A stretch of 24,475 nucleotides of DNA from a virus: positions 1 to 24,475 of IMG/VR virus record IMGVR_UViG_3300032288_005553; one strand, given 5' to 3'. The notes under the pieces are model-generated. The model searched no databases and was not told the origin of the DNA. It worked only from the letters and a program-made list of their open reading frames with translations. This document shows, in pieces, positions 5,955 through 19,964 of this stretch (the stretch's first letter is position 1; each line of letters begins with the position of its first letter). A program made the translations under genes and the position numbers.

Positions 5955-6665
5955 ATGAGTGCAACTGTGATTATACCAACAACCGGTACACCAGAATTAA
6001 ATGGTGCTGTTGGTAGTGTTTTAAAACAAACAACCGAAACAAAATGTTACGTGATTGCCGATGGCGTACAATCACATTCCAAAACAAGAATTATTACCGA
6101 CAATTTTCTGGAAAGAAAAAATCTGGAAAGATGTTTTTTGCCACTTAATGTTGGTGCAAATGGTTTTTATGGCCATCGTGTGTATGCCGCTTTCACACAC
6201 TTAATTGATACCGATTATGTACTTTACCTGGATCAAGACTGTTGGTTCGACAACGACCATGTACAGTCTTGCATTGAAACGATAGAAAAAAACAACCTGG
6301 ATTGGTCCTACTCTCTCCGCAAGGTTTGTGACAAACAAGGCAACTTCATTTGCAATGATGATTGTGAGTCTTTAGGTAAGTGGCAATCTTATCATGGAAT
6401 TAATCATATAGACACAAATTGTTATTGCATTAAAACTGAAGTTGCGATAAAATTAGCTTCTGTTTGGCATGGAGGTTGGGGACAAGATAGAGTGTTTTTA
6501 TCGGTTCTTGCTCAACATTTTCCAAAATTTGATTGTACAAGAAAATACACCGTGAACTATCGAGTGGATGGAAATGCTGGATCAGTAAATTCAGAATTCT
6601 TTTTGAATGGAAATAAATTAATGAAACAAAAATATAATGGAGAATTCCCATGGCAAAAAATTTAA
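5955..6665 (+). CDS. GT-A glycosyltransferase, family 2 type
   Basis: 236 aa. The N-terminus ATVIIPTTGTPELNGAVGSVLKQT is the typical nucleotide-binding start of family 2 glycosyltransferases. The DxD-like metal/nucleotide motif YLDQDCWF (D93-Q-D95) follows, and WGQDR (around residue 176) is a plausible acceptor/base region. It would transfer a sugar from an NDP-sugar in the cytoplasm. It opens the glycan cassette: GAGG before the ATG and a 16-b overlap with the next gene. The substrate cannot be read from sequence. It could act on host LPS/capsule precursors, a virion protein or, less likely, modified DNA. Confidence 0.85.
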   Translation: MSATVIIPTTGTPELNGAVGSVLKQTTETKCYVIADGVQSHSKTRIITDNFLERKNLERCFLPLNVGANGFYGHRVYAAFTHLIDTDYVLYLDQDCWFDNDHVQSCIETIEKNNLDWSYSLRKVCDKQGNFICNDDCESLGKWQSYHGINHIDTNCYCIKTEVAIKLASVWHGGWGQDRVFLSVLAQHFPKFDCTRKYTVNYRVDGNAGSVNSEFFLNGNKLMKQKYNGEFPWQKI

Positions 6666-7507
6666 TTATTGGTGGATTCACCAATTATGTTATCAATCAA
6701 CTTAAACCCTGGGTAATTTCGGCAAAAGAAGTTGCTGGAGAAAATGATGTTGTTTTGATTACTGGTCAAACAACTCAAGAAACGGTTGATTGGTTAAAAG
6801 AACAAAATGTCATAGTTATTCCCATGAAGCAAGTTGAAGGAATTCCTGTTCATGTATTGCGTTTTCTTTCTATCTATGAATACCTAAGACACAATTGGGC
6901 CAGTTATCGCTTTGTGGTGACAACTGATGTAAAGGATGTTTATTTTCAAAGTGATCCTTTTGAACAATTGGAAAGACTAATATCTCCAGGTTCAACAACC
7001 AAATTGGTAATTGCATCAGAAGGTTTGAAATATAAAGACGAACCTTGGGGAGATGACAATCTCAAACAGGCATATGGTCCATATGTTTATGAACAATTCA
7101 AAAATAACACCATCTACAATGTAGGCACTTTTGGTGGTGTTTCTGAATATGTAAAAGACATGGTGTTCAACATCTTTACCAATGCAACCAATCGTCCAAT
7201 TCCCATCTGTGACCAAGCTGTATTCAATGTCTTAATCAATACACAACCATTCAAAGATGTTTGTGTTCCGACGAATAATTGGGCATGTGAAGCGGGAACT
7301 GTTGCTGATCCATCCAAGATTGAATATTTCAGACCAAATTTACTATGTTATGAACCTGTGTTTGAAAATGGTACCGTAGTGACACAGGATCGTTATGTGT
7401 TTCCGATTGTTCACCAATATGACCGTGTTCCTGAATGGAAGAAGTTTGTTCAAGAAAAATATGGACAAGAAAGTACCGAACAATATTTTGTGTACAATAC
7501 AATTTAA
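6650..7507 (+). CDS. putative GT-A type glycosyltransferase
   Basis: 285 aa. Residues 86-104 (YRFVVTTDVKDVYFQSDPF) form the 'TDxrDvxFqsdPf' signature found in several glycosyltransferase families, where the Asp residues bind the metal and nucleotide. NTIYNVGTFGG (around residue 153) and CDQAVFNVL (around residue 187) correspond to the acceptor-side G-G and D-Q motifs of such enzymes. The start is the ATG at 6650 inside the previous gene, with GGAG at 6640-6643. It is part of the overlapping cassette. The sugar and acceptor are unknown. Confidence 0.75.
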   Translation: MAKNLIIGGFTNYVINQLKPWVISAKEVAGENDVVLITGQTTQETVDWLKEQNVIVIPMKQVEGIPVHVLRFLSIYEYLRHNWASYRFVVTTDVKDVYFQSDPFEQLERLISPGSTTKLVIASEGLKYKDEPWGDDNLKQAYGPYVYEQFKNNTIYNVGTFGGVSEYVKDMVFNIFTNATNRPIPICDQAVFNVLINTQPFKDVCVPTNNWACEAGTVADPSKIEYFRPNLLCYEPVFENGTVVTQDRYVFPIVHQYDRVPEWKKFVQEKYGQESTEQYFVYNTI

Positions 7508-7517
7508 GGATTATAAA

Positions 7518-7997
7518 ATGAATGATGAAATATCTATATTGATTAAACTTGTCACAAATGATTCGGATGTTGAAACACTCCGGGTTATTAGAAATACTTG
7601 TAGAACTTTTATGACAAGACAGATATATGAAATTGATACACAAAACCAGCAAATCTGGTGGCAAAAATTGGACAAGTCTACAAACTTTCCATACTTGTTA
7701 TATAAAGCAGAATTTGGTGTGATTATCTACCCGATTGGTTATGGTTACGTCAGATTTGAGAATGGTGAAATATTATTAACTGGAGGATTAATTCCTGAAG
7801 AACGTGGTAAAGGTTACGGCAAAAAGTTATTTGAACTAATGATTAATTCAAGTAAGAGATATAATGTACCAATCAAATTAGAAGTTCTTAATTCAAATAC
7901 AAATGCGTTTGAAATGTATAAGAAAATAGGCTTTACTGTCATTTCAAAAGATGACAAAATAACAAAAATGGAGTATCATTATGATTCAGTTATTTAA
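7518..7997 (+). CDS. GNAT-family N-acetyltransferase
   Basis: 159 aa from the ATG at 7518, which follows AAGGA at 7506-7510. The frame is open further upstream, but that would run deep into the previous gene. Acetyl-CoA motif A is present as GLIPEERGKGYGKKLFELMI, with the RGKGYG loop at about 96-101. The C-terminal LEVLNSNTNAFEMYKKIGF is the standard GNAT motif B ending (N..A...Y.K.GF). It would transfer an acyl group to an amine. Since the next gene is a sugar aminotransferase overlapping by 17 b, the likely substrate is the amino sugar that enzyme makes, as in N-acetylated NDP-deoxyamino sugar pathways (inference from context). Confidence 0.88.
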   Translation: MNDEISILIKLVTNDSDVETLRVIRNTCRTFMTRQIYEIDTQNQQIWWQKLDKSTNFPYLLYKAEFGVIIYPIGYGYVRFENGEILLTGGLIPEERGKGYGKKLFELMINSSKRYNVPIKLEVLNSNTNAFEMYKKIGFTVISKDDKITKMEYHYDSVI

Positions 7998-9057
7998 AGT
8001 TAAAATGTCAAATGATGCACCAAGTTTGTTGAGTGAGGTGCTTTTATCGGGTTTTATTGGCCAAGGTCCAAAAGTTGAAGAATTTGAAGATGCTTTACAG
8101 AAACAATTGAAAAGTGTGCGTAGACCAGTTACTGTAAATTCTTGTACACATGCAATTGATCTTGCATTGGCACTACTTGATGTGGGTCCTGGTGATGAAA
8201 TTATTGCTACACCACAAACTTGTTTTGCTTCACAGATTGGCGCCATGCACCGTCATGCCAAAATCAGATGGACAGATATTGATCCAATTACGGGTCTGAT
8301 GGATACAAACACAGTTGAAAAATTAATTACCAAAAAAACAAAAGCAATCATTGCTGTCAATTGGGCCGGCCGTGTCTGTGATTACAAAAAATTAAAATCG
8401 TTTGGTGTTCCTGTAATTGAGGATGCCGCACATACTTGGGATGTAGATGTACCAATTACAACAGAACGTGGCGACTATATCTGTTACAGTTTTCAAGCAA
8501 TCAAATATTTGACAAGTGGTGATGGGGGCGCATTGATTTGCCCCACAGAAGAAAAAGAAAATGAGGCCAAAATTTTAAGATGGTTTGGTTTAGATAGAAC
8601 GAAAGGAGAATCTTTCCGTTGTTCACAAAACATAACCAGAGCCGGTTACAAATATCACATGAATGATATTAACGCAACTATCGGATTAGCTAATATTGCA
8701 CCTGCGTTAGAGTCTGTTATAAAACAGAAACAGAACACACAATACATTATAGATAATGTAAAGAATAAAAATCTGATACTTCCAAAGTATGATAATGAAT
8801 GTTCATTCTGGTTATTCAGTATGCATGTATTAAATAATAGAAAACAAGAATTTATTGATTATTTGGCTAAGAATGAGATTTCTTCAAGTCCAGTGCATTT
8901 TAGAAATGATTTATATGATAGTACGATACATTTTAAAGAGGAAGATTTGCCTGGAGTATCATCATTTCACGATACACAAGTTTGTATTCCTAATGGTTGG
9001 TGGTTATCTGATGATGACTTAAATAGAGTAATTACTACATTAAATAATTTTAAATGA
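7981..9057 (+). CDS. DegT/DnrJ/EryC1/StrS-family sugar aminotransferase
   Basis: 358-aa PLP-dependent aminotransferase acting on NDP-keto sugars. Visible signatures: the phosphate-binding NSCTHAIDLAL (53-63), the pyridine-ring Asp in VIEDAAH (D148), and the Schiff-base lysine in SFQAIKYLTSGDGG (K175). All are in family order, and the length is normal. The C-terminal small domain with SSPVHFRNDLYD fits the dimer active site. It presumably makes an amino sugar for the glycosyltransferases around it, with the adjoining GNAT acylating it. The NDP-sugar dehydratase that should precede it is not in this window, so the keto sugar may come from the host or from elsewhere in the phage genome. Confidence 0.93.
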   Translation: MIQLFKVKMSNDAPSLLSEVLLSGFIGQGPKVEEFEDALQKQLKSVRRPVTVNSCTHAIDLALALLDVGPGDEIIATPQTCFASQIGAMHRHAKIRWTDIDPITGLMDTNTVEKLITKKTKAIIAVNWAGRVCDYKKLKSFGVPVIEDAAHTWDVDVPITTERGDYICYSFQAIKYLTSGDGGALICPTEEKENEAKILRWFGLDRTKGESFRCSQNITRAGYKYHMNDINATIGLANIAPALESVIKQKQNTQYIIDNVKNKNLILPKYDNECSFWLFSMHVLNNRKQEFIDYLAKNEISSSPVHFRNDLYDSTIHFKEEDLPGVSSFHDTQVCIPNGWWLSDDDLNRVITTLNNFK

Positions 9058-9725
9058 AAATTGCACTTTGTTTTTCTGGTCAAACCAGATCATTTGAAAA
9101 AGGTTACGAATATTATAAACGTAATCTTTTGGATCACCACGATGTTGATGTATACATACACTCTTGGATACCAGCCAATTCAGAAATAGTTAAACTATAC
9201 AATCCTGTTTCTTTTTCCTTTTCAACTCCTCTGGTTGAAGATGTAAACAGCAAATATACAAACACACCAAACCCACAAAAATATCCTCCAAACAATACAT
9301 ACAGTATGTTGTACTCATTGTACATGGTGAGTAAAATGATAAAAACAAAATATGATTGGGTGATAAAATCTAGAACAGACTATGCTTTGAATGTAAATAT
9401 TCCTTTTGAAGAATTAAATTCAAATTTTTTGTATATTCCGAATTGTCGAATGGTGCCAGAAAGAGATTTTGGCAACGACCAATTTGCTTTCAGCTCGCAG
9501 AGTAATATGGACAAATACATGAAAACCTTTTTGTATATTGATGAATATTACAAAGCCGGAAATCAATTTATAGGCGAAGATATGATGAGAGCCAATTTAC
9601 ACAAACATGGCCTTCATGGTGAAAAATTAGTATATGTTAATATGAATAATCCTTTTCCTCCTGGACCACATAACGGCACTTGGCATTCATTAATTCGTGA
9701 TGACTATAATCAATGGAAAAAATAA
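9054..9725 (+). CDS. glycosyltransferase-like protein of the 'ALCFSGQTRSF' type
   Basis: 223 aa, overlapping the aminotransferase by ATGA. The N-terminus MKIALCFSGQTRSFEKGYEY and the central WVIKSRTDYAL (R/D pair near residue 105) are typical of a poorly characterised GT-like family found in viral and bacterial surface-glycan loci. GNDQFAFSS (around residue 140) and FIGEDMM (around residue 173) resemble later GT acceptor-side motifs. No Shine-Dalgarno is evident, so translation probably depends on coupling. The exact activity is unknown; the glycosyltransferase call rests on motif shape and neighbourhood. Confidence 0.65.
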   Translation: MKIALCFSGQTRSFEKGYEYYKRNLLDHHDVDVYIHSWIPANSEIVKLYNPVSFSFSTPLVEDVNSKYTNTPNPQKYPPNNTYSMLYSLYMVSKMIKTKYDWVIKSRTDYALNVNIPFEELNSNFLYIPNCRMVPERDFGNDQFAFSSQSNMDKYMKTFLYIDEYYKAGNQFIGEDMMRANLHKHGLHGEKLVYVNMNNPFPPGPHNGTWHSLIRDDYNQWKK

Positions 9726-10456
9726 TCAAAGAATTAAATGGACATTCAGGATCAAAAGTTTACTTAAAAGAAATTGATGGCCAATATTGTGTTGAAAAAA
9801 TAGGAAACACAAAAAGGAATTTGGAAAGAATAACTGCCTTATGGGAACAAGGTTATAGTATTCCTAAAATATATTCGGTTGGTGATGACACATTAACTAT
9901 GGAGTACATACATGGATTGGACATGAAAACATATCTGATTCACAACAATATAAATTATCTGTACAATTTTATTAGTAAAACAATAGATGATTTCTCCAAA
10001 GATTCCGCAATAAAAGATTATACAGAAATATATCACAAAAAAATTTCTTGGTTGGATGATTGTGATTTTTTACCATTCACCAAAGAACAGTTAATATCCA
10101 AATTGCCAAAGAGATTACCCAAATCAACCTATCACGGCGATTTTACTTTAGAAAATCTTATACATACGAATACTGGTTTTGTTATGATTGATGCGGTAAC
10201 CATAGAGTATGACTCTTATGTGTTTGATATCGCAAAGTTGAGACAAGACGTTGAGTGTAAATGGTTTCTAAGAAGTTCTGATGTAAAGTTAGATACAAAA
10301 CTGGAAATAATAAATTCGAAATTGAAAAAAGATTACAAACAATATTTTGATGATAATCTTTTAATATTGATGTTATTGAGAGTGTTACAACACTGCAAAA
10401 TAGGTGACAGTAACCACAAATTTTTAATGAAAGAAATTTACAGATTATGGAAATAA
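9713..10456 (+). CDS. APH/choline-kinase-like phosphotransferase
   Basis: 247-aa protein with the small-molecule kinase fold. The catalytic loop YHGDFTLENLI (H141-G-D143 ... N148) is the Brenner-type HGDxxxxN, followed by the metal-binding MIDAVTIEYDS (D160) in place of the usual IDxE. The N-lobe has VEKIGN, the probable ATP-anchoring Lys region. Such kinases phosphorylate sugars, choline or aminoglycosides. It overlaps the previous gene by 13 b and the following nucleotidyltransferase-HAD gene by 10 b. The simplest reading is that it phosphorylates the small molecule that the next protein couples to a nucleotide (inference). The substrate is unknown. Confidence 0.8.
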   Translation: MEKIIKELNGHSGSKVYLKEIDGQYCVEKIGNTKRNLERITALWEQGYSIPKIYSVGDDTLTMEYIHGLDMKTYLIHNNINYLYNFISKTIDDFSKDSAIKDYTEIYHKKISWLDDCDFLPFTKEQLISKLPKRLPKSTYHGDFTLENLIHTNTGFVMIDAVTIEYDSYVFDIAKLRQDVECKWFLRSSDVKLDTKLEIINSKLKKDYKQYFDDNLLILMLLRVLQHCKIGDSNHKFLMKEIYRLWK

Positions 10457-11475
10457 TTGTACCCGCAGCTGGACTTTCTACCAGATTTCCAAACATGAAA
10501 CCCAAATATCTACTATATGATTATAAGGGTGATATGATGTTAATGAACGCTTTGAAAACCTTCAGACAAAAAGGATTCAGAATTCATCTGGGTATTTTGA
10601 AAGAACACCAGGAAAAATATAATGTTATTGAACAGATACAACATGAATGGCATGACAATATCAATTATGTAATCATCGATAAGCCCACAAGAGGTCCTGC
10701 GGACACAGTATATCAAATTATCAAGGCGGCCGGCATACACACCTCCGAAATCTTCATCAAGGATTGTGATAGTTTCTTTGAACATGAGATTACCAAAGAT
10801 GACAATTATGTTTGCGTTTCAAGAATTTCACAGCATGAAATACTAAAAAAACTTGCATCAAAGAGCTTTACAATTGCTAACGAAAATGGTATAATAACGG
10901 ATATCGTTGAGAAAGAAGTGGTATCTGATACTTTCTGTGTTGGTGGTTATAAGTTTTCAACAGCCATGATGTACAAAAAGGCCTTTGAAGAATTGAACAC
11001 AGATAGAGAGGTATTTGTTTCCGATGTGATTGGTCGTTGCATCAACAGTATGCAAATCTTTACCAACAAATATGTAACTGATTATGTTGATGTTGGTACC
11101 GCACAAGACTGGTTTGAATACAATGACAAGCCTGTAATTTTTTGTGACATTGATGGTACAATCATCGAAGCGCAATCCAGACTTGACCTGGAAGCCAAAA
11201 GAGAACCTGTGGTATTAGAAAACAATGTGAATAGATTGCTTCAGTTACAGGAGACCGGCGCACAATTCATATTCACTACAGCAAGAGAAAACGAATACAC
11301 TTCTTTAACCAGAGAAATGTTATATAAGTTAGGGTTCAAAAGTTTCAATTTAATTTGTGGTTTACAGAACTCAAAACGTATTATAATCAATGACTACAAC
11401 GAAGCAAATCCATATCCAAGAGCGGTTGCAATCAATCTTTATAGAAATGATGACAGACTACAGGACTTTTTATGA
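10447..11475 (+). CDS. bifunctional nucleotidyltransferase-HAD phosphatase fusion
   Basis: 342 aa with two domains. Residues 1-225 are a sugar-phosphate/choline-phosphate nucleotidyltransferase: IIVPAAGLSTRF...KPKYLL (3-23) is the NTP-binding start, TRGPADTV (81-88) the second nucleotide loop, and IKDCDSFF (104-111) the metal-binding Asp. Residues 228-342 are a HAD domain: FCDIDGTI (232-239; D234 and D236 are the nucleophile and acid), TTAR (277-280) as motif II, and Lys310 and IINDYN (313-318) as motifs III/IV. The pairing of kinase, nucleotidyltransferase and phosphatase recalls activation of a heptose or a phospho-alcohol to an NDP form. The product cannot be assigned. Translation starts inside the kinase gene. 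Confidence 0.87.
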   Translation: MEIIVPAAGLSTRFPNMKPKYLLYDYKGDMMLMNALKTFRQKGFRIHLGILKEHQEKYNVIEQIQHEWHDNINYVIIDKPTRGPADTVYQIIKAAGIHTSEIFIKDCDSFFEHEITKDDNYVCVSRISQHEILKKLASKSFTIANENGIITDIVEKEVVSDTFCVGGYKFSTAMMYKKAFEELNTDREVFVSDVIGRCINSMQIFTNKYVTDYVDVGTAQDWFEYNDKPVIFCDIDGTIIEAQSRLDLEAKREPVVLENNVNRLLQLQETGAQFIFTTARENEYTSLTREMLYKLGFKSFNLICGLQNSKRIIINDYNEANPYPRAVAINLYRNDDRLQDFL

Positions 11476-12164
11476 TTATACCAGATAAAAATTTGTTCAT
11501 TGTTTCTTCAGCAATAAAACCATCCATTGGAATATATTCTTTTGAGGAAAGGTTTAGTCAAACCGTACAGTCACTAAAATCAGTAAGAGAAAAAGTTCCA
11601 AATGCTATAATTGTATCAGCTGATGTATCACTTGTTCCTTTGACACAAATGGAAAAAGATATAATTTATAACTATTCTGATGTTTTTATTGATTTATCGC
11701 AAGAACACAACACAAAAACTTTTTCCGAAAGAGGAATGAAAAGTCATGCTGAAAACGCTTTGTTGTTTGCCACTTTATTGACTTTGAGACATAACCATGA
11801 ATTAAGTAAGATGTTATCTTCCGTTAAAAGAATCTTTAAATTTGGTGGTCGAACTGAATTGCAAGATACTTTTGATATTAAAGAATATGATAATCTTTTT
11901 GGAAAATTTGTATTTAAAAAAAGAATACCAACTTGGATGCATCCGCCAATTACTTCCAATCTGTTGATTACAAGAATGTTTTCTTTTTGTCCTTCTTTGT
12001 ACGACACATATTTAAATGTTATTCAGAAAAACTTCACAGTATTAGATAGTTTAGATACTGAACACGCACACTTCTTGAACATTCCAAAAGAACATTTGGT
12101 CGAATTTGACACGCTTCATTGTTGGGGTCGAATCGCTGTAACAGGTCAAATCGAACATTATTGA
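11472..12164 (+). CDS. unknown cassette protein, possibly GT-like
   Basis: 230 aa, overlapping the previous gene by ATGA and closing the glycan cassette. The N-terminus KNLFIVSSAIKPSIGIYSFEERFSQT followed by VREKVPNAIIVSADVS looks like a Rossmann-type start. KRIFKFGGRTEL (around residue 119) resembles the 'K.sGRy.L' motif seen in surface-glycan transferases, and MHPPITSNLL and FDTLHCWGRI are conserved-looking late segments. I do not recognise a named family. A role in the same glycan pathway is inferred only from the overlap and position. Confidence 0.7.
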   Translation: MIIPDKNLFIVSSAIKPSIGIYSFEERFSQTVQSLKSVREKVPNAIIVSADVSLVPLTQMEKDIIYNYSDVFIDLSQEHNTKTFSERGMKSHAENALLFATLLTLRHNHELSKMLSSVKRIFKFGGRTELQDTFDIKEYDNLFGKFVFKKRIPTWMHPPITSNLLITRMFSFCPSLYDTYLNVIQKNFTVLDSLDTEHAHFLNIPKEHLVEFDTLHCWGRIAVTGQIEHY

Positions 12165-12219: not shown

Positions 12220-12227
12220 TATAAATA
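12220..12227 (+). promoter_or_regulatory. T4-type late promoter (perfect TATAAATA)
   Basis: The exact T4 late consensus TATAAATA lies 41 b upstream of the next ATG, in the largest gap of the window (12165-12268). T4 late transcription uses this -10 element with gp55/gp33 and needs no -35. Just upstream at 12182-12197 is an AT-only palindrome (AAAATTTAAAAATTTT) that might help end the cassette transcript, but it has no GC stem, so I do not call it a terminator. Nothing else is seen in this gap. Confidence 0.65.
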
Positions 12228-12268: not shown

Positions 12269-13462
12269 ATGAAATCGTTTCGAAGTTATTTAATTGAACA
12301 GGAAGATCCTGAAGAGGGTGCCAGCCGTCAGATTAAACATTTGACGCACGCTGAAGATCGTCCATTGCAAAACGGAGAAAAAGGTGCTGGCAGAGCACTA
12401 AAGATATTGGCTGCAGCTGCCGAACACATCAAACAAGGCAAGAAAACCTCAGAACTAACCACAAAATATGATGGTTCTCCAGCAATTGTATATGGTCACC
12501 ACCCTGAAACGGGCAAATTCTTTGTAGCGTCCAAATCGGCATTTAATAAGACACCAAAGATTAATTATACCGAGAAAGACATTGAAAAGAATCATGGCCA
12601 TGCGCCAGGCCTGGTAAAGAAACTAAAAGACGCACTGAAACACCTACCAAAAGTTGCACCAAAAGAAGGTGTATATCAGGGTGATATGATGTTCTCACAA
12701 GAGGACAAACACAAAACAAAAGATGGTACGTCTTTTCATCCAAACCCATCTGGACTCACATATACTGCACATGGCACACATAAATCTGCCGTAGACAAAG
12801 CCAAAATTGGTGTCGTTACACATCTATCATATAAGGGTAAAGATGCCAAAAGTTTGAATGCAAACCACGAAGTTGACCATGAAAATTTTGGTAAACATTC
12901 AGATGTTTTCTCGGTTGACCCTAGAATGGACACATCTAAGGTACATTTCAGTCCACAACAACAAAAAGAATTCAGTAAACACCTATCTGCTGCTCAATCT
13001 GTACATGATACGCATGGTGATGACATGTATGCAGGAACAAAGATACATCAGGGTATCGGTGGCCACTTAGAAACCTATATGAATCACACGGTCAGAACAG
13101 GTGAACAACCAAATCACCAAAATTTTAAGAACTGGCTGGAAACCAAGAAGAATAAAGAAATCGACAAACTAAAAGTCGAAAAGAATAAGACAGCTAAGCA
13201 ATCCGAACTGAAAGGTGAGTTAGACAAGATTGAACGTAATAAGAAACATTACAATAATCTATTCAAAATGCATGGTCACTTACAAGCTGCAAAGAATACA
13301 TTGATTGATGTTATGAATCAACATCAAGAATTTCAACACACACATGGTGGTGAAAATGCTAACCCTGAAGGTTATGTTTTTCATCATTCCGGTGATTCCG
13401 ACAAATTTGTTAACCGCCAAGAGTTTTCTCGTAGAAATTTTGCGGGAATAAGAAACATATGA
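12269..13462 (+). CDS. KxDG-motif nucleotidyltransferase-like protein with capsid-targeting-like N-terminus
   Basis: 397 aa. It starts MKSFRSYLIEQED, resembling the capsid-targeting peptide of T4 internal proteins (MKTYQEFIAE), with L-I-E at 8-10 fitting the prohead protease rule. The body shows a possible covalent nucleotidyltransferase set: TTKYDGSPAIVYG (KxDG at 66-69, like ligase motif I), EGVYQGDMMF (133-142, motif III-like), PEGYVF (366-371, like motif IV EGxV) and DKFVN (378-382, motif V-like). Spacing between I and IV is unusually long because of a His- and Lys-rich middle with a coiled-coil-like 290-345. I recall this type from cyanophages as an unassigned DUF (DUF6267-like). Ligase-type activity is an inference. 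AGAGG precedes the ATG. Confidence 0.8.
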   Translation: MKSFRSYLIEQEDPEEGASRQIKHLTHAEDRPLQNGEKGAGRALKILAAAAEHIKQGKKTSELTTKYDGSPAIVYGHHPETGKFFVASKSAFNKTPKINYTEKDIEKNHGHAPGLVKKLKDALKHLPKVAPKEGVYQGDMMFSQEDKHKTKDGTSFHPNPSGLTYTAHGTHKSAVDKAKIGVVTHLSYKGKDAKSLNANHEVDHENFGKHSDVFSVDPRMDTSKVHFSPQQQKEFSKHLSAAQSVHDTHGDDMYAGTKIHQGIGGHLETYMNHTVRTGEQPNHQNFKNWLETKKNKEIDKLKVEKNKTAKQSELKGELDKIERNKKHYNNLFKMHGHLQAAKNTLIDVMNQHQEFQHTHGGENANPEGYVFHHSGDSDKFVNRQEFSRRNFAGIRNI

Positions 13463-15258
13463 AAAAGTTTTTAGAAAAGATTCAAGAGGATTTACAGACA
13501 CACACGCCTGTGGTGATGGCTTTTGGCCGCATGAATCCTCCAACAATTGGACATGAAAAGTTGGTCAACCGAGTAAAAGAAATTGCTCAAGACTATCATG
13601 CTCCACACCACATTATATTGTCACATTCCATGGATGCGAAAAAGAATCCGTTGGATGTGGCAGCTAAAATTAAGCACGCAAAAAGATTTTTTCCAAATAC
13701 CAACATCATTTCTTCCAGTAAAGACAAACCAACGTTTTTACAACATGCAGCTGCATTACACCAGGCTGGACACGATCATCTAATTATGGTTGCCGGATCG
13801 GATAGAATACCTGAATACGAACAAAAACTGCATCAGTATAACGGTGAAGGTCCAGGAAAACTATTTAATTTCAAAAAGATTGAAGTTAAATCTGCTGGCC
13901 AGCGTGATCCTGATGCCGAAGGTGCAGAAGGAATGTCAGCATCCAAGATGCGTGAACATGCCAAAAATAATGACCTTGCCTCTTTTAGACAAGGTGTTCC
14001 ATCTCATGTACCAGAAAAACATGCAAAAGAATTATTTCGTGATGTGCGCCGTGGCATGGGTATCAATGAACAAAATGAACGTGGTATGTTCAAAGCAATT
14101 TTCATAACTGGTGGACCAGGTTCTGGTAAAGATGTAATTTTACGTGAAGCAATTGCTGAATCCAAAATGGTAGAAATTAACCTGTCACAAGCTTTCGAAT
14201 ACTTGGCAGACAAAAAGAAACTCTCTGAAAAAACAAACGATTATCGTAGAGAGTCAATCAGAAAACGTGGTCCACTCATCATAAATGGTCCAGCAGACTG
14301 CAACGAAGATATATTATATGTGAAAGAAGAACTGGAAGAACTTGGATATAAAACATCCATGGTTTTTGTGAGTACCACAAATGAAGTCAGTCAGGAAAGA
14401 AACCAGAAACTTTCCAAAATGATTGCCGAATCTGTTAGAAATGACAAGTGGAAATTATCACAAAAATACAAAACTGATTACTCATCAATGTTTGAAGAAT
14501 TCATGGTCGTAGATAATTCAAAGAACCTACAAGATATCGAAGAAGAAATTACCGAGACATATAAAAAATTAAATTCTTTTATTGATTCAACAGAAAAAAC
14601 TGACACTGCAATGTTATGGTTAGAAAACCATGGTATGCTAAATATAAATGATTCTATTCAATCTTTATTTAAGGAAGAAAAAAATGATAAAGTGGTTTCT
14701 AGATTTATTCAAAGGTTCCAAGAAAGTCGAGGATCAAAAACATCCCCTAGACTTCACAAGTCGGACAGCAATGGTCGAGCCATCGGCCCAAGTGATATCC
14801 CAGCCGATAACCGAGCCTCAGACCCCAACAGTGACAACATCAAGTGGGACGCCAACAAGCGCCGTGGAGGTTACACCTTCAGAACCTACACAGAAGCCGA
14901 AGAAACCACGAACAAAAAAACAAACTTCAGCAAAGACAAAGAAAAAGTAAAGAAAAACAGATTTTCCGATAGTCCAACCGTAAATCAAAGAATGAGAAAC
15001 GTTACATCTATCGGACCCGAATTTGATACTCGCCAACAGGGAACAGTATACCCAATGTCAGGCCTCGGCGATGTAACATATAGAGAATCGAAGAATTTTT
15101 TATCTTTTAGAAATTCACTAAAAGAATCATTTATGGATCCAGGCGACAACGAAATGGGTGTTGGTGGTGTTTTGAATGGTGCAACAAATAAAGAGCCAAT
15201 TCAAAATCCAAAAGATAACATTGGTATAACAATTTTAAAGAAGAAGAAAAAGAAATGA
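13459..15258 (+). CDS. bifunctional cytidylyltransferase/NMNAT-like + P-loop kinase protein with low-complexity tail
   Basis: 599 aa. Residues 15-190 are a HxGH-type nucleotidyltransferase: VVMAFGRMNPPTIGHEKL (T29-I-G-H32), IISSSKDKP, MVAGSDR and the SASKMRE (160-166) equivalent of the ISSTxxR motif. Residues 212-400 are a P-loop kinase domain with Walker A GGPGSGKD (218-225). The order nucleotidyltransferase then kinase recalls NadR-type NMN adenylyltransferase/ribosylnicotinamide kinase; cyanophage homologues are usually called cytidylyltransferase. The interdomain linker has GINEQNE (I-N-E at 202-204), a possible prohead protease site. From about 405 the tail is polar and basic and ends in a Lys run. 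The N-terminus MKKFLEKIQED resembles a capsid-targeting peptide. The tail region is also covered by a second frame (14684-14950). ATGA couplings exist at both ends. Confidence 0.85.
   Translation: MKKFLEKIQEDLQTHTPVVMAFGRMNPPTIGHEKLVNRVKEIAQDYHAPHHIILSHSMDAKKNPLDVAAKIKHAKRFFPNTNIISSSKDKPTFLQHAAALHQAGHDHLIMVAGSDRIPEYEQKLHQYNGEGPGKLFNFKKIEVKSAGQRDPDAEGAEGMSASKMREHAKNNDLASFRQGVPSHVPEKHAKELFRDVRRGMGINEQNERGMFKAIFITGGPGSGKDVILREAIAESKMVEINLSQAFEYLADKKKLSEKTNDYRRESIRKRGPLIINGPADCNEDILYVKEELEELGYKTSMVFVSTTNEVSQERNQKLSKMIAESVRNDKWKLSQKYKTDYSSMFEEFMVVDNSKNLQDIEEEITETYKKLNSFIDSTEKTDTAMLWLENHGMLNINDSIQSLFKEEKNDKVVSRFIQRFQESRGSKTSPRLHKSDSNGRAIGPSDIPADNRASDPNSDNIKWDANKRRGGYTFRTYTEAEETTNKKTNFSKDKEKVKKNRFSDSPTVNQRMRNVTSIGPEFDTRQQGTVYPMSGLGDVTYRESKNFLSFRNSLKESFMDPGDNEMGVGGVLNGATNKEPIQNPKDNIGITILKKKKKK
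14684..14950 (+). CDS. overprinted small gene nested in the kinase gene (+1 frame)
   Basis: An 88-aa frame inside the preceding gene, with a strong Shine-Dalgarno AGGAAG (14672-14677) six bases before its ATG. The product starts MIKWFLDLFKGSKK, an amphipathic or membrane-seeking helix. It continues with a Pro/Thr/Ser-rich middle (TEPQTPTVTTSSGTPTS) and ends in a basic tail (KPKKPRTKKQTSAKTKKK), a sensible layout for a phage protein. The shared stretch, about 14755-14890, is visibly richer in G and C than its surroundings, as expected if two frames constrain it. The host frame also looks genuine here and beyond, so both may be translated. It may instead be a chance open frame. Confidence 0.5.
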   Translation: MIKWFLDLFKGSKKVEDQKHPLDFTSRTAMVEPSAQVISQPITEPQTPTVTTSSGTPTSAVEVTPSEPTQKPKKPRTKKQTSAKTKKK

Positions 15259-15938
15259 AATCATTCTTAGATTTTTCCAAAGAACGTGAAAACGATGAGT
15301 TGAAAAGACAAATCGATCATTACACAGAAATGGCCGAAAAACAACAAGAGAGAGCGGAAGCCGCACTGATGATGGGTGACCGTGATGGTTACGCATTATT
15401 TATGGCAAAAGTCAATCATCTAAAGACTCAATGTGAAAATCTAAAGGGTATGAAAGAAGAAGTTGAACAGATTGATGAAATGGACAAATCTCAACCATCA
15501 AGTGACCGTGGGGGTGAAAGTTCAGGTGATCCATATGCCAAAGGTGATAAATCTAAACCGGTGAAAACCAAAAATTTTACTGACAAAGCCGGCAAAATAT
15601 TAAGCCAGGCAATGAACAAAGCTTACAAAAAAAATGTAAAAGAAGAAGTTGAATTGGATGAATCCACACCAGCTTGGCAACGCAAAGAAGGCAAGTCAGA
15701 ATCTGGCGGCCTAAACAAAAAAGGCATTGCATCCTATCGTAGAGAAAATCCAGGTTCAAAATTATCGATGGCTGTCACAACCAAACCATCAAAGTTAAAA
15801 CCAGGTTCAAAAGCTGCCAATCGTCGCAAATCTTTTTGCGCTAGAATGAGCGGCATGAAAAAACGCTTGACCTCTGCAAAAACTGCTAGAGATCCAGATT
15901 CTAGAATTAACAAATCACTACGCAAGTGGAATTGCTGA
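15255..15938 (+). CDS. basic virion-associated protein with two EEVExxDE motifs and Cys-containing C-terminal domain
   Basis: 227 aa, starting MKSFLDFSKERE (capsid-targeting-like, although the cleavage triplet is S-K-E rather than I/L-x-E). Residues 10-65 are a coiled coil. The acidic motif occurs as EEVEQIDE (68-75) and EEVELDE (130-136), with Lys-rich linkers. The last ~75 residues form a compact basic domain, GGLNKKGIASYRRENPGSKL...RRKSFCARMSGMKKRLTSAKTARDPDSRINKSLRKWNC, with Cys at 195 and 227. I recall this small module from many T4-like aquatic phages (a DUF6321-like domain), function unknown. It follows the kinase gene by ATGA overlap. It is probably an internal head or DNA-binding protein (inference). 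Confidence 0.8.
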   Translation: MKSFLDFSKERENDELKRQIDHYTEMAEKQQERAEAALMMGDRDGYALFMAKVNHLKTQCENLKGMKEEVEQIDEMDKSQPSSDRGGESSGDPYAKGDKSKPVKTKNFTDKAGKILSQAMNKAYKKNVKEEVELDESTPAWQRKEGKSESGGLNKKGIASYRRENPGSKLSMAVTTKPSKLKPGSKAANRRKSFCARMSGMKKRLTSAKTARDPDSRINKSLRKWNC

Positions 15939-15951
15939 ACGGAGAAAAAAA

Positions 15952-16860
15952 ATGATAAACTTAAAAGCAAAAGATTCTGTCGCTGACGCAGTAAAAGACA
16001 TCCTTCAACAGGAAGCTTTAAAAGGTCAACAACATCAAATCGATAAAAACAAAAACAAAAAAATTGATGCTCAAGATTTTGCCATCTTGCGTGGTGAAAA
16101 GAAACCTGAGGTCAAAAAAGAAGAAGTTGAACAAATCGATGAATTGAAAAAGTCAACTGTCAAGTCATATCTTAGTAAGAAAATGGCTAGCCTGCCGGGT
16201 AAAAATCCAAAGAAAGACCAAGAAAGTATGATGAAAGCTCATCACCGTGTGACTGGTGTTAAGCCAACATCAGAAGAAGTTGAACTAGACGAAGGCACAA
16301 TGACCCATATCACTCTTGGTAAAAAAGTAAAGAATGATGAAGGTGGCCACAACCAAGATGTTCATTACAAAGGTAAAAAAATAGGTTCTATCGACTCCTA
16401 TAAACACAGAACCGGTTTACGTTATGGTGGCAAACATGATGCGACCGGTGATATGGATGCAGGTTCTAGAAGTCCGGAAGAAGCAGTTGATTTTGTTAGA
16501 AGTTCCCATGCTGAACATTTAAAAAGTATGAAAGAAGATACTGAACTGAATGAACGTGAAATGACCGCAGGCGAAACTGCTGAAAAAGAGCGTATTGTTA
16601 AAGGTATGAAAAAGAGTCTTTCCGGTTTCAAAGCACGTTATGGTGAAAAAGCCAAAAACGTCATGTATGCTACCGCTACAAAACAGGCCATGAAAGAGGA
16701 AGAACGGGTTGACGAAGCTAATTCTCCTTTTGATTGGAAAAAACCACGTGAACCTGAAGTAAAAGGTGGAGCTGGTTTTAAACCTGGTCGTGCTTATGGC
16801 GGCGCAGCACAAAAGTCTAAACCAGAACAGGAAGATGAAAAAGCCGAAAAAAAAAAGTAA
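15952..16860 (+). CDS. motif-repeat virion-associated protein, zero-frame product
   Basis: 302 aa, GGAG before the ATG. It has a single EF-hand/dockerin-like loop, DKNKNKKIDAQD (31-42). Four copies of the acidic motif follow: EEVEQIDE (57-64), EEVELDE (108-114), EDTELNE (195-201) and EEERVDE (249-255). They separate small basic segments, among them a KSYLSKKM helix and a beta-like HITLGKKVKNDEG...KKIGSIDSYKHR domain. The frame ends in a Lys run encoded by ten consecutive A's, immediately before a stop. The -1 frame then continues with a protein of the same style up to 17036 (separate entry), so this end may be only the unshifted product. Confidence 0.78.
   Translation: MINLKAKDSVADAVKDILQQEALKGQQHQIDKNKNKKIDAQDFAILRGEKKPEVKKEEVEQIDELKKSTVKSYLSKKMASLPGKNPKKDQESMMKAHHRVTGVKPTSEEVELDEGTMTHITLGKKVKNDEGGHNQDVHYKGKKIGSIDSYKHRTGLRYGGKHDATGDMDAGSRSPEEAVDFVRSSHAEHLKSMKEDTELNEREMTAGETAEKERIVKGMKKSLSGFKARYGEKAKNVMYATATKQAMKEEERVDEANSPFDWKKPREPEVKGGAGFKPGRAYGGAAQKSKPEQEDEKAEKKK
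16851..16857 (+). promoter_or_regulatory. -1 ribosomal frameshift slippery site A AAA AAG
   Basis: In the zero frame the codons are AAA (16852-16854) and AAG (16855-16857), preceded by A: the classical A_AAA_AAG heptamer used in E. coli dnaX and several phage genes. It ends a run of ten A's (16847-16856), and the zero-frame stop TAA follows at once (16858-16860). AGGAAG lies at 16829-16834, 16 b upstream, a possible stimulatory Shine-Dalgarno, although dnaX has it nearer (about 10 b). I see no convincing downstream hairpin. Reiterative A's could also allow transcriptional slippage. Confidence 0.55.
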
Positions 16861-17036
16861 ATGAGGCTAAAAGGCCAGAGTCTGACGATGTACCTTTTGC
16901 TGGACCATACAACACAACATCTTCTCCAGCAAATGTTGTTGATAAATCAGGTGCAACACATACACCTATGTCAAGAGTAAAACATCTGGCCAAAATGGCA
17001 ATGAAAAAAGTTAACAAAGACTTGGGCAAGAAATAA
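16857..17036 (+). CDS. -1 frame extension of the preceding gene (frameshift product tail)
   Basis: After slippage the frame reads on for 59 residues: VNEAKRPESDDVPFAGPYNT, then a Ser/Asn linker, then TPMSRVKHLAKMAMKKVNKDLGKK. It has no start codon or Shine-Dalgarno of its own. It continues the logic of the upstream protein: the junction KKKVNEAKRPE mirrors EEERVDEANSPF a little earlier, and the basic helical end matches its neighbours. Its stop is one base from the ATG of the next gene (TAACATG), a typical coupling distance, and that gene has no good Shine-Dalgarno. This suggests ribosomes do reach 17036. One extra A in the run would also fuse the frames, so an assembly or sequencing miscount must be excluded. 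Confidence 0.65.
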   Translation, partial: VNEAKRPESDDVPFAGPYNTTSSPANVVDKSGATHTPMSRVKHLAKMAMKKVNKDLGKK

Positions 17037-17037
17037 C

Positions 17038-18651
17038 ATGGACAAAAAAATAGAACGATTAAAAGCTATTTTGAAAAAGGGTTATACCGAAAGACCAACT
17101 TTTGGTACTGACCCTAGAGATCCTTGGTCTACAAGATATAATATCAATGAAAGTGCATCACTCGATAAGTATTTGAAATCTAGAGGAATAAACCCTCAAT
17201 TTGTATCAAAAGACACAAAAGTTGCTCATTCAAAATCTTTGGCTTTTTTGGCTTGGCAAAAAGCCCATCAAAATGAAGAAGTGCAAGTTGAAGGTATGAT
17301 GACAAAACATACTCCAACAGAAAAAAGAGCACATCAATTGAAAAGAGCTGTTCATTATGGTACTGAGGTTAGAACGAACGGCGGCCTCCACGGAAAAGAA
17401 TTGCACTCAGAAGAAGTGGAAGATACAATAACTTTTGATATACCACTTTTAATTCGTATGTTGGAATACGCACGTGAAGATGCCAAGACCGACATGGACC
17501 TACACAAAGTAGTCAAAAAACTTATTGGTATCCGTGACAAAGGTACGTTGACTATGGACGATTATACATTTGTCACAAAAATCAAAGAAGAATTTGAAAT
17601 CACCGAGCAAGATTGTAAATGTAAAGATAAAAAAGAATGGGAAAAAGTTGCTCAATCGAGATCAGAAATTTGGCGCAGAAAAAGATTAAAAATTGATGAA
17701 GATTTGCGTCAATGGTTCAGCAAGTCACATCCAGAAGGTGGTTGGAAAAGAATCAATTCAAAAGGTGAAGCTATTGGACCTTGTGCTAGAGAGCCAGGCG
17801 AACCAAAACCAAAATGTATGTCAAATGAGAAACGTGCTCAACTGAGTAAAAAGGAACGTGCTGCTGCAGTTGCAGCCAAACGTAAACATGATCCGGTGGC
17901 CGATAGATCGGGTAAAGGTGGTAAACCAGTTAATGTTTCGAATTACGGAAAAGGAAAACTTGGAGAAGCTGCCACACCAGCACAACAAGCTGCAATTGCA
18001 ATCGCTATGAAAAAAGCTGGCAAAAAACCAAAGAACGAAGAAGTTGTCGATGAAGCTTGTTGGGATACACACAAACAAGTGGGTATGAAAAAGAAGGGCA
18101 ATCGAATGGTTCCTGATTGTGTTCCAAAAAATGAAGAAGTGGAATTGATTGATGAAAAGAATTCACCAACCAATCCGAAATTGTGGTCACGTGCAAAAGC
18201 AATGGCTCGTTCTAAGTTTGATGTTTATCCATCAGCATATGCAAATGGTTGGGCATCAAAATGGTATAAATCTAAAGGTGGCGGTTGGAAAACCGTTAAA
18301 GAGGATAAGTATCAAGACCCATATGCAGCTACACAAACAGTAGGTTCTGAAGTTGATACAGATTCAATGCCTAAACGTTCAAAAGAATTATCTAAATCCG
18401 CCAGAATCATTAAATCAATTTATAAGAAAAAGGGTGTTAAAGAGGATTTATACGACCACGAAAAAGAAAGTAAGTCGGTTGCTGGACCAGGAAAAAAACC
18501 AAAAATGAGCACATCCATAAAAGCTGCTTTTGGAGATTCTGAACCTCAAGCGGCCGCAGTACTTTCCGGTGGAAAAACACTCACTGGTGGAAACAGGGAC
18601 ACAATTGAAATTGACCCTTTGATGCGTAAACCAAAACCAGCAAAACAATAA
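17038..18651 (+). CDS. multidomain basic virion-associated protein with acidic motif repeats
   Basis: 537 aa built from small modules joined by charged linkers. EEVQVEG is at 80-86. A helical module (TFDIPLLIRMLEYAREDAKTDMDLHKVVKKL) spans 132-162. CKCKDKKEW follows at 193-201. LKIDEDLRQWF (217-227) opens a basic module with a GGWKRINSKGEAIGPCAREPGEPKPKC segment. EEVVDEACWDTHKQVGMKKKG is at 334-354. EEVELIDEKNSP (366-377) opens a Trp-rich module, NPKLWSRAKAMARSKFDVYPSAYANGWASKWYKSKGGGWK, that I recall from aquatic phages as a DUF5872-like domain. The Cys residues are clustered. No enzyme signature is seen. It is probably packaged or structural (inference). The start depends on coupling to the stop at 17034-17036. 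Confidence 0.78.
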   Translation: MDKKIERLKAILKKGYTERPTFGTDPRDPWSTRYNINESASLDKYLKSRGINPQFVSKDTKVAHSKSLAFLAWQKAHQNEEVQVEGMMTKHTPTEKRAHQLKRAVHYGTEVRTNGGLHGKELHSEEVEDTITFDIPLLIRMLEYAREDAKTDMDLHKVVKKLIGIRDKGTLTMDDYTFVTKIKEEFEITEQDCKCKDKKEWEKVAQSRSEIWRRKRLKIDEDLRQWFSKSHPEGGWKRINSKGEAIGPCAREPGEPKPKCMSNEKRAQLSKKERAAAVAAKRKHDPVADRSGKGGKPVNVSNYGKGKLGEAATPAQQAAIAIAMKKAGKKPKNEEVVDEACWDTHKQVGMKKKGNRMVPDCVPKNEEVELIDEKNSPTNPKLWSRAKAMARSKFDVYPSAYANGWASKWYKSKGGGWKTVKEDKYQDPYAATQTVGSEVDTDSMPKRSKELSKSARIIKSIYKKKGVKEDLYDHEKESKSVAGPGKKPKMSTSIKAAFGDSEPQAAAVLSGGKTLTGGNRDTIEIDPLMRKPKPAKQ

Positions 18652-18653
18652 AA

Positions 18654-18661
18654 GATAAATA
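18654..18661 (+). promoter_or_regulatory. T4-like late promoter candidate
   Basis: GATAAATA, 7/8 to the T4 late consensus, sits 32 b before the ATG of the Ig-like protein gene and directly after the stop of the preceding gene. The surrounding AAGATAAATATT is identical to the sequence before the gene at 4503. Confidence 0.5.
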
Positions 18662-18693
18662 TTACAATAACCCATAGGTTAAAGGAGAAAAAC

Positions 18694-19374
18694 ATGTCAT
18701 CTTGGGGAAATAACGATAATGCTGCCAATGCACCATATTGGGCAGTAAATTCTACAATAGTAAATGCAGCAGGAGTAAAAGCCGTAGCTGCAGCACCTAC
18801 AGCAGCCAATGTGGCATTGCTGTATGCAAACACAACAGCTGATGCGTATACTGTTGGAGAAACCATTGGTTTGTTCGCAGTTGATACACAAGAAGCTTCA
18901 ACGTCAAATAGAGTACATGCCGGCTGGGTATTAAGAACCACGGGTTCTGGTGGCCGTGCAAATCGTGTACAAGAAGAAGTTTTGGTTGCCTTGAGTGGTA
19001 TGAGTGCTGACAATTCCGACGGAGATGCACAAACTTATGCTAACGTTTCTATTACATTGTCTGGTCCATCAAGCGGATCTGTTTTGGCCAATGCAACATA
19101 CTATGCAAACGTGGTTTCCTTCTCTGTAACACCAACATTAGATGGAAATACAGCAGCAACATTGACATATCAGTGGCAATACGACAATGGTGGTACATGG
19201 GCAAATATTCCAGCGAATACTACCCCAATTAGATGGTCTGGCGCAACAACCTCTACATTGCAAGCTCGTCCTGGAACGACAGCAAACAATGGAACAGTAT
19301 TGCGTGTTGTCGTAACAGCAGCAGACCAAGGCGTAACAGCAACTTCTGCAAACGCAACATTGACCGTTGCATAA
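18694..19374 (+). CDS. capsid decoration / Ig-like domain protein (Hoc-like)
   Basis: 226 aa, strong AAAGGAG (18681-18687) before the ATG. The N-terminal ~105 residues (SSWGNNDNAANAPYWAVN..., ending ...HAGWVLRTTGSGGRANRVQEEVLVAL) form a module rich in Ala, Asn and Gly that I associate with virion surface proteins of marine T4-like phages. Residues 120-226 are an Ig-like beta-sandwich: ITLSGPSSGS, SFSVTPTLDGNTAATLTYQWQYDNGG, TLQARPGTTANNGTVLRVVVTAAD and SANATLTVA, with the conserved Trp of the Y-Q-W-Q strand. Such domains decorate capsids (Hoc) and bind surface carbohydrates. Gene-specific expression is suggested by the late-type promoter before it and the hairpin after it. The exact virion location is unknown. 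Confidence 0.8.
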   Translation: MSSWGNNDNAANAPYWAVNSTIVNAAGVKAVAAAPTAANVALLYANTTADAYTVGETIGLFAVDTQEASTSNRVHAGWVLRTTGSGGRANRVQEEVLVALSGMSADNSDGDAQTYANVSITLSGPSSGSVLANATYYANVVSFSVTPTLDGNTAATLTYQWQYDNGGTWANIPANTTPIRWSGATTSTLQARPGTTANNGTVLRVVVTAADQGVTATSANATLTVA

Positions 19375-19378
19375 TAAA

Positions 19379-19394
19379 AGGGGCTTCGGCCCCT
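19379..19394 (+). terminator. GC hairpin with UUCG loop after the decoration gene
   Basis: AGGGGC-TTCG-GCCCCT gives a six-pair stem capped by the very stable UUCG tetraloop, four bases after the stop codon. The following bases are CTTAAATA, so there is only a short U tract. It may terminate inefficiently or protect the 3' end of the abundant upstream mRNA. Confidence 0.7.
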
Positions 19395-19395
19395 C

Positions 19396-19402
19396 TTAAA
19401 TA
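19396..19402 (+). promoter_or_regulatory. weak late-promoter-like element after the hairpin
   Basis: TTAAATA directly follows the hairpin and overlaps the first base of the ATG at 19402. If used as a late -10 element, the transcript would start a few bases inside the gene and could serve only the internal ATG at 19435. Evidence is limited to the 7-base match. Confidence 0.25.
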
Positions 19403-19788
19403 TGTTTGAGAATTTGAATGAGGATAATTTTATAATGTATGCAATGAAGTGTTATACTTCACCACATTGTATATTATCCGAATTCGAAAGTGATATAAAA
19501 AGAACCAAGTATTTGAAAAGACTTTTTCGTAGATATAAATCATCGAGAACTTTAAAAGAAAGATTAGTTTTAAATCATATCATTTTATTGAACAATGTTT
19601 TTGGTCCAGAAGCTACGTCCAGAATATTGTTCTATAAAATTGATGAACGTGATTATGATGTATTGAAAACATTTTTATCATACTTAAATATTGCACCTGA
19701 TGTGGTGTACGGTATTAACGGAAAAAACATTGATGTTGCAAGAATTCCTTTAGACATGAATGTTGTAAAAATTTTATTAAAGATATGA
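19402..19788 (+). CDS. conserved small T4-like phage protein, function unknown
   Basis: 128 aa, MFENLNEDNFIMYAMKCY..., with a helical middle (RTKYLKRLFRRYKSSRTLKERLVLNHIILLNNVFGPEATSRILFYKI) and an IPLDMNVVKILLKI ending. I recall close relatives in cyanophages (DUF7207-like) that start with the same MFENLNE. I therefore keep the ATG at 19402, although only a hairpin and no Shine-Dalgarno precedes it. An in-frame ATG at 19435 has GAGGA at 19420-19424 and could give a shorter form. The stop overlaps the next start (ATGA). Role unknown. Confidence 0.8.
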   Translation: MFENLNEDNFIMYAMKCYTSPHCILSEFESDIKRTKYLKRLFRRYKSSRTLKERLVLNHIILLNNVFGPEATSRILFYKIDERDYDVLKTFLSYLNIAPDVVYGINGKNIDVARIPLDMNVVKILLKI

Positions 19789-19964
19789 AAACTTTCAAAG
19801 ATTTTGTTAAAGAAGATGGCATGGCCGCTGCGCCCACAAATTCTGTATCAGGTGTTGCAGGATCTGGCGACACACGTTTGCCACAAAATCAAAGAGAGCC
19901 TGGTGTAAGTAAAAAAAGAAATCCTGTTATGATGAATGTGAGAAGAAAACCTCCAAAGACGTAA
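19785..19964 (+). CDS. 59-aa basic protein with capsid-targeting-like N-terminus
   Basis: A short gene starting in an ATGA overlap with the previous one. The product begins MKTFKDFVKEDG, the closest match in this window to the T4 internal-protein leader MKTYQEFIAE. It continues with a small-residue segment (MAAAPTNSVSGVAGSGDTR) and a basic Pro-rich end (SKKRNPVMMNVRRKPPKT). After removal of the leader it would be a ~49-residue basic peptide, like the small internal head peptides of T4. The cleavage triplet would be V-K-E rather than I/L-x-E, which weakens that reading. Confidence 0.7.
   Translation: MKTFKDFVKEDGMAAAPTNSVSGVAGSGDTRLPQNQREPGVSKKRNPVMMNVRRKPPKT

Follow-up and report, generated by a model that had tools for sequence, protein, structure and literature searches.

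The operon at positions 12269-19964 of the virus contig IMGVR_UViG_3300032288_005553 probably encodes the head cargo of a T4-type phage: proteins that would be transcribed late, targeted to the head by short N-terminal leaders, cut by the prohead protease gp21 and delivered together with the DNA. The window, by which we mean the whole 24,475-base contig, is a fragment of the genome of a T4-like phage, a virus that infects aquatic bacteria and is related to phage T4. The genes of the operon are named here by their starts: A (12269), B (13459), C (15255), D (15952), E (17038), F (18694), G (19402) and H (19785).

12269-13462, plus strand: gene A, DUF6267, an RNA/DNA-ligase-like nucleotidyltransferase, predicted packaged enzyme
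13459-15258, plus strand: gene B, nucleotidyltransferase (NMNAT/PPAT fold) with a P-loop kinase-like domain, predicted packaged enzyme
15255-15938, plus strand: gene C, leader and modules joined by cleavage-like linkers, with DUF6321 at the end
15952-16860, plus strand: gene D, modular protein with four linkers
17038-18651, plus strand: gene E, modular protein with two linkers
18694-19374, plus strand: gene F, counterpart by position and weak sequence similarity of P-HM2 PHM2_169
19785-19964, plus strand: gene H, 59-residue leader-bearing protein upstream of gp61

Targeting of the T4 internal protein (IP) IPIII depends mainly on positions 4 and 7 and its processing mainly on positions 8 and 10, and ten residues suffice (PMC9026906). 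A preliminary description of the window had pointed to such N-termini in the open reading frames (ORFs) at 12269, 13459, 15255 and 19785, and both the frames and their N-termini were found as described.

12269-12298, plus strand: leader of gene A, MKSFRSYLIE, cut predicted after residue 10
13459-13488, plus strand: leader of gene B, MKKFLEKIQE, which fits at positions 4, 8 and 10 and has Lys at 7
15255-15284, plus strand: leader of gene C, MKSFLDFSKE, with F4 and F7 and without the canonical cut site
19785-19814, plus strand: leader of gene H, MKTFKDFVKE, near-identical to MKTFKEFIKE of T4 gp61.1

Aromatic residues occupy positions 4 and 7 in A, C and H, and B has F4 only; I/L at position 8 combined with E at position 10 is found in A and B. 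As had also been noted, the leader ends of A (LIE) and B (IQE) fit the triplet (I/L)xE, and those of C (SKE) and H (VKE) do not fit it exactly.

The likeness to T4 leaders exceeds chance, because 12 of the 981 ORFs from three near-complete relatives and 150 kb of T4 start with M..[FYW]..[FYW][ILVM].E, while only about 0.16 such starts are expected from the frequency of the same 9-mer within proteins (35 occurrences per ~212,000 residues). One of the 12, a hydrophobic protein at 8093 of the relative G003, is probably a chance match. The second line of evidence is a weight matrix derived from 63 distinct leaders of DUF6267 homologues of aquatic phages, none of them from T4. Applied to 243 T4 ORFs, the matrix placed gp61.1, IPII and IPIII at ranks 1-3 and IPI at rank 5. 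In the window it ranked A (19.1), H (11.8), C (11.5) and B (3.7) first to fourth, with the next gene at -8.9; the test is circular for gene A, since A and its relatives fed the matrix, and not for T4, C, H and B. In the three relatives, the top matches (4 in G001, 5 each in G003 and G002) lie within the corresponding cluster. It is thus strongly supported that A, C and H, and B in a variant form, carry predicted capsid-targeting leaders of the T4 type. The likeness proposed in the preliminary description holds, since a matrix blind to T4 recovers IPI-III, gp61.1 and the four window genes. Its choice of A and B as the two best fits holds for A only: B scores lowest among the four, and the best are A, H and C.

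Alignment across homologues, one of the checks suggested earlier, revealed leader conservation at the positions that T4 genetics found important. In 23 distinct leaders from close relatives of A, F4 and E10 are invariant, position 7 is F or Y and position 8 is I or L, and positions 2, 3, 5, 6 and 9 are more variable than 4, 7, 8 and 10. Two more DUF6267 clades (~30-35% identity) have the same fixed positions, as counted over the leaders matching F..[FYW]..E at positions 4, 7 and 10 (30/56 and 19/45 distinct starts), i.e. the majority form; most of their remaining starts show either a shifted leader or a different residue, such as H or L, at position 7. In a 53-sequence alignment of all three clades, E10 is invariant and F4 nearly so. 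Residues 1-23 are disordered in the gene A model.

Gene A matches Pfam family PF19782 (DUF6267; E-value 3e-91). Invariant or nearly so in the 53-sequence alignment are K66 and D68 (KxDG), E367-G368-x-V370 (EGxV) and K379-x-V381-x-R383 (KxVxR). All 50 structural neighbours listed for its predicted model (predicted local distance difference test, pLDDT, 83.6) are RNA/DNA ligases, the best having Z 8.8 and a root-mean-square deviation of 3.9 over 190 aligned residues; Foldseek alone gave no significant match (E 0.14). Searching solved structures with the sequences of A and B returned nothing useful; in NCBIfam, B has only a nucleotidyltransferase match below the cutoff, and A, C, D, E and H match no specific family. 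The product of gene A is thus predicted to have a ligase-like fold with the motifs of the covalent nucleotidyltransferase / RNA ligase superfamily, which agrees with its earlier description as a KxDG nucleotidyltransferase-like protein. It has the ligase-type motifs and fold in common with the RNA ligase family, at low identity, and adds a phage leader. DUF6267, DUF6321 and DUF7207 are named in no paper of the literature searched. Small, very basic proteins adjoin DUF6267 in the contigs L121 (10254-10625) and L126 (5612-6004); such neighbours start with MLSFKQFVSE (C48C1) and MKKFSELTSE (Melnitz), and they are further head-cargo candidates in relatives. One relative has an extra gene, MNFLRFKQFDSYNLNE..., between A and B (L052, 10199-11185).

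The clade of gene B has the variant leader MK(K/S)FL(E/Q)K(I/L)xE, characterized by F4, K7, I/L8 and E10 over 12 distinct leaders; canonical or near-canonical leaders are usual in the rest of the family. The N-terminal domain has the NMNAT/PPAT fold (Z 14.8) with an invariant NPPTxGH, which contains the (T/H)xGH motif, and gene B also matches the cytidyltransferase family phrog_3041. S-SM1 SSM1_190 (cluster T4-GC190), which has been reported in the S-SM1 virion, is 40% identical to it over 188 residues. The second domain contains a P-loop, and its kinase-like part is modelled at moderate confidence, lower than that of the N-terminal domain. Of the nucleotidyltransferase-kinase proposed in the preliminary description, the nucleotidyltransferase corresponds to the domain with the NMNAT/PPAT fold, and the putative kinase to this P-loop domain. 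The second match in the Foldseek list is NadR (6gyf), a fusion of an NMNAT domain with a P-loop kinase. The modelled domain order of gene B is NadR-like; it is common to both, identity is low, and gene B adds the phage leader. Between the two domains lies the following feature:

14059-14070, plus strand: GINE, candidate protease site between the two enzyme domains of B, a conserved (I/L)xE

The domain junction has (I/L)xE in nearly all relatives and MNE in one, and residues 205-210 of the model have pLDDT < 50. A second, C-terminal candidate site in B (NFLSFRNSLKE) was dropped, as it is not kept among relatives.

The cluster is headed by a putative promoter:

12220-12227, plus strand: T4-type late promoter TATAAATA heading the gene A-H cluster, the sole exact match in the window

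We take TATAAATA to be the T4 late-promoter box. Since ~1.6 exact matches are expected by chance on the two window strands, where one is found, its weight rests on position and conservation. The box stands 48-57 nucleotides upstream of A in 32/44 distinct relatives, compared with 5/3561 control windows, and each of the three near-complete relatives has only 7-9 copies in its genome. In these genomes it precedes the presumed scaffold gene 22 in 3/3 cases and A in 2/3. Before DUF6267 it is infrequent in the C48C1-like clade (4/70) and is found in 18/60 members of the Melnitz-like clade.

Because the window is a fragment, gp21 was sought in relatives. PF03420 (gp21) was identified in 5/10 and 2/21 of the contigs from relatives that were searched, the three near-complete genomes among them, and the contigs in which it is missing may be mere fragments. 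The search for a gp21-like protease recommended earlier was therefore successful in seven relatives. The N-terminal regions of gp23 in the three relatives have LNE, with T or A as the next residue, at the presumed propeptide end, comparable to FLTE/A in T4 gp23.

Genes C, D and E contain cleavage-like linkers between modules.

15453-15479, plus strand: linker KEEVEQIDE in gene C
15639-15662, plus strand: linker KEEVELDE in gene C, directly before the DUF6321 module
15663-15935, plus strand: DUF6321 module of gene C, isoelectric point 11.3
16117-16143: linker KEEVEQIDE in gene D
16270-16293: linker SEEVELDE in gene D
16531-16554: linker KEDTELNE in gene D
16693-16716: linker KEEERVDE in gene D
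18034-18054 and 18130-18156: linkers NEEVVDE and NEEVELIDE in gene E, flanking the CW...K.VPDC module

The linker motif (K/S/N)E(E/D)..(I/L/V)(D/N)E is present in 2, 4 and 2 copies in C, D and E and almost never appears in shuffled sequences (for gene D, in 0 of 2000 shuffles). In the three relatives and T4, the motif is confined to the matching genes. The DUF6321 assignment of gene C rests on a match to PF19846 (E 2.4e-18). An (I/L/V)xE site lies within five residues before the DUF6321 module in 18/18 distinct T4-like-linked contexts vs 9/63 others, some of these 63 being leader-bearing loci without the T4-like label and the contexts of related phages not being independent. What precedes the module varies by locus: a leader (MISFKKFLEE, MLTFQEFITE), a linker (EEVELDE) or its own Met. 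DUF6321 modules that are free-standing or located behind Gly-rich stretches were also observed, in contigs without T4-like markers (L127-L206). The CW..K module is likewise preceded by an (I/L/V)xE-type site in 10/14 contexts. The DLRxWF module, which does not consistently follow (I/L)xE, was not used. Gene E has modules in common with S-CREM2 ORF160 (E 9e-14). Taken together, C-E appear to be modular proteins with (I/L/V)xE at the module starts, as if cut in the head, which is a new observation.

Gene H in relatives has a CW module inserted between a like leader and the same tail. It is the counterpart of T4 gp61.1 in leader and rough position; both are small and encoded near gene 61, and their mature parts differ. 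T4 gp61.1 (NC_000866 18966-19130; L118), a protein of 54 residues, is the top of the 243 T4 ORFs by the aquatic-phage leader matrix. It may be an unrecognised internal head protein of T4; no paper of the literature searched reports it in virions.

Published evidence comes from virions of relatives, for the gene B family and for E-like modular proteins. Cytidylyltransferases of this family were reported by mass spectrometry in the purified virions of S-SM1 (PMC3037559), S-CREM2 (PMC10665884), S-SCSM1 (PMC9602691) and S-SZBM1 (PMC9146016). Their N-termini are MKKFSAFLNE, MKNFSSFLTE, MKSFLQFLKE and MRFRQFIIE, respectively, so that 4/4 of those traced here start with a leader of the F..F type whose last residues are (I/L)xE, which accords with the earlier suggestion that such proteins would be found in virions. 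A fifth report, for S-CBWM1, is cited within those cyanophage papers and stands outside this count. Two E-like modular proteins were also detected: S-CREM2 ORF160, with 7 peptides (PMC10665884), and S-SZBM1_139, with 4 peptides (PMC9146016), which has the CW module. In S-SZBM1 the DUF6267 neighbour of the cytidylyltransferase is leaderless, and its number is absent from the main text of the paper (PMC9146016). The contrast between the leader-bearing cytidylyltransferase in the virion and its leaderless neighbour is suggestive, not proof.

The leader, its conservation, the late promoter, the linkers at module starts, the presence of gp21 in relatives and the enzyme folds are supported by computation. 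The mature forms of the operon proteins are likely, by homology, to be located inside heads; their cleavage by gp21 and their injection are inferred. The operon would be transcribed late in infection from the T4-type late promoter, as are head scaffold genes. In A, C and H, and in variant form in B, the ten N-terminal residues would serve as a capsid-targeting sequence, with the aromatic residues at positions 4 and 7 docking the protein to the prohead core during head assembly. The gp21 protease would then cut after (I/L)xE, taking off the leaders of A and B, and would probably also cut B at the GINE junction and C, D and E at their repeated (K/S/N)EEVExxDE linkers, freeing small modules and separate enzymes within the head. 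DNA would be packaged around this cargo, which would enter the host with the DNA, as T4 internal proteins do. The virus thus probably carries ready-made enzymes along with its DNA.

Several observations weigh against the head-cargo interpretation. Gene B has Lys instead of an aromatic residue at position 7, C and H lack a perfect (I/L)xE cut site, and position 10 is D in 2/12 leaders of B relatives and A in another relative. The leader is not universal: leaderless DUF6267 homologues exist in several cyanophages, and leaderless cytidylyltransferases in P-HM2, Syn1 and CBB. The stronger statement that cyanophage homologues are leaderless as a rule was rejected, since only some lack the leader. 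Raw (I/L)xE counts in C-E are not above those of shuffled proteins and were dropped as a signal. The published virion mass spectrometry covers homologues of B and E only, in other phages, and virion preparations can hold contaminants, as the S-CREM2 authors point out (PMC10665884). Cleavage of these proteins is reported in no paper of the literature searched.

Three other explanations were considered. The leader could target the proteins to the prohead, where they would be components of the scaffold core or would be mostly degraded and lost, the enzymes acting in assembly and not being delivered. The late promoter in common with scaffold gene 22 is compatible with this explanation, as is the precedent of T4, whose core proteins are largely eliminated after cleavage by gp21 (PMC9026906); nevertheless, we consider it unlikely, since cytidylyltransferases and modular proteins were detected in mature virions of several cyanophages and the conserved catalytic motifs suggest an enzymatic role. 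Alternatively, the N-termini could be short amphipathic helices for oligomerisation or partner binding, convergent with T4 leaders, and the virion detection could reflect co-purification. A helix is predicted over residues 2-12 of gene B, some homologues are leaderless and co-purification was raised by the S-CREM2 authors (PMC10665884). This explanation is very improbable in view of the blind recovery of T4 internal proteins by the matrix, the invariance of E10 among varying neighbouring positions, the occurrence of the leader on unrelated proteins of one operon and the modules that begin just past the predicted cut. Least probable of all is a location in the neck, tail or baseplate, which would suit neighbours annotated as structural (gene F; S-SCSM1 gp277 'tail fiber') and is disfavoured by the leader class, gp21-type sites and promoter in common with head-core genes, as well as by the fact that the T4 proteins known to have such a leader are internal head proteins.

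The head-cargo operon resembles T4 IPI-III in the ten-residue N-terminal leader with aromatics at positions 4 and 7 and I/L8 and E10 (IPII and IPIII), in the gp21-type protease (here in relatives) and in the T4-type late promoter box. Gene C is comparable to IPI, both having the targeting residues without a cut site at positions 8-10 or nearby. The window cluster differs from IPI-III in its enzyme cargo, in the several tagged genes per operon and in the many internal cleavage-like linkers, and its cargo sequences are not seen to be related to IPs. For the injection of enzymes, the preliminary description named Alt, which T4 carries in its head and injects, as is proposed here for the cargo enzymes; however, Alt belongs to a different enzyme class, and its N-terminus (MELITELFDE) is not of the leader type and ranks only 168 of 243 T4 ORFs. 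The fitting model is IPI-III and apparently gp61.1, not Alt. The cyanophage cytidylyltransferase/NMNAT proteins (T4-GC190) share with gene B a homologous nucleotidyltransferase domain and a leader-bearing N-terminus, and gene B differs from those with virion data by its fused P-loop kinase-like domain. In the giant phages SPN3US and phiKZ, ejection proteins are processed by a prohead protease at cleavage motifs that differ from those here; these head proteases are distantly related to gp21 (PMC9026906).

Cyanophage virions repeatedly hold a nucleotidyltransferase, and the leader would provide a specific packaging mechanism, none having been proposed in the virion papers. The T4 capsid-targeting system would thereby be extended from coliphage to aquatic T4-type phages, and the leader offers a sequence rule for predicting phage proteins loaded into heads. 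If the linkers are cut, these phages would deliver mixtures of peptides and enzymes made as polyproteins. In the literature searched, which covered few subscription papers, no paper connects cyanophage cargo with capsid targeting, a weak indication that the finding is novel. We tentatively propose, as a possibility somewhat short of probable, that aquatic T4-type phages have a shuffled head-cargo kit made as polyproteins, in which a capsid-targeting leader or an (I/L/V)xE linker in front of any module would lead to its loading into the prohead and its trimming by gp21 to an identical mature end; injected peptides and enzymes could then be swapped by module exchange. Among its members here would be a ligase-like enzyme and a NadR-like enzyme pair, with possible roles in RNA repair or NAD+ restoration at the onset of infection.

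Outside the leader-bearing genes, the window has the following layout, based on the sequence and on gene order in relatives, where the annotated order is uvsX, gp41, the cluster and gp61.

663: uvsX
near 1959: gp41
4503-5939, plus strand: probable leaderless virion-associated protein, match to S-SCSM1 gp282
22886: gp61

The product of 4503-5939 is 25% identical (E 2e-26) to S-SCSM1 gp282, annotated as a virion protein, and gene F is 39% identical over 75 residues (E 1e-5) to P-HM2 PHM2_169, annotated as a cyanophage virion structural protein. Adjoining gp41, the phage gene at 3371-4480 matches DruA, a component of the Druantia anti-phage system, in Pfam (E 2.5e-10). The block 5955-12164, between the gene at 4503 and the head-cargo operon, contains apparent sugar or surface-modification genes, judged by eye to include glycosyltransferases, an aminotransferase, a kinase and a sugar nucleotidyltransferase with a HAD-like part. 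The gene content of this block varies among relatives.

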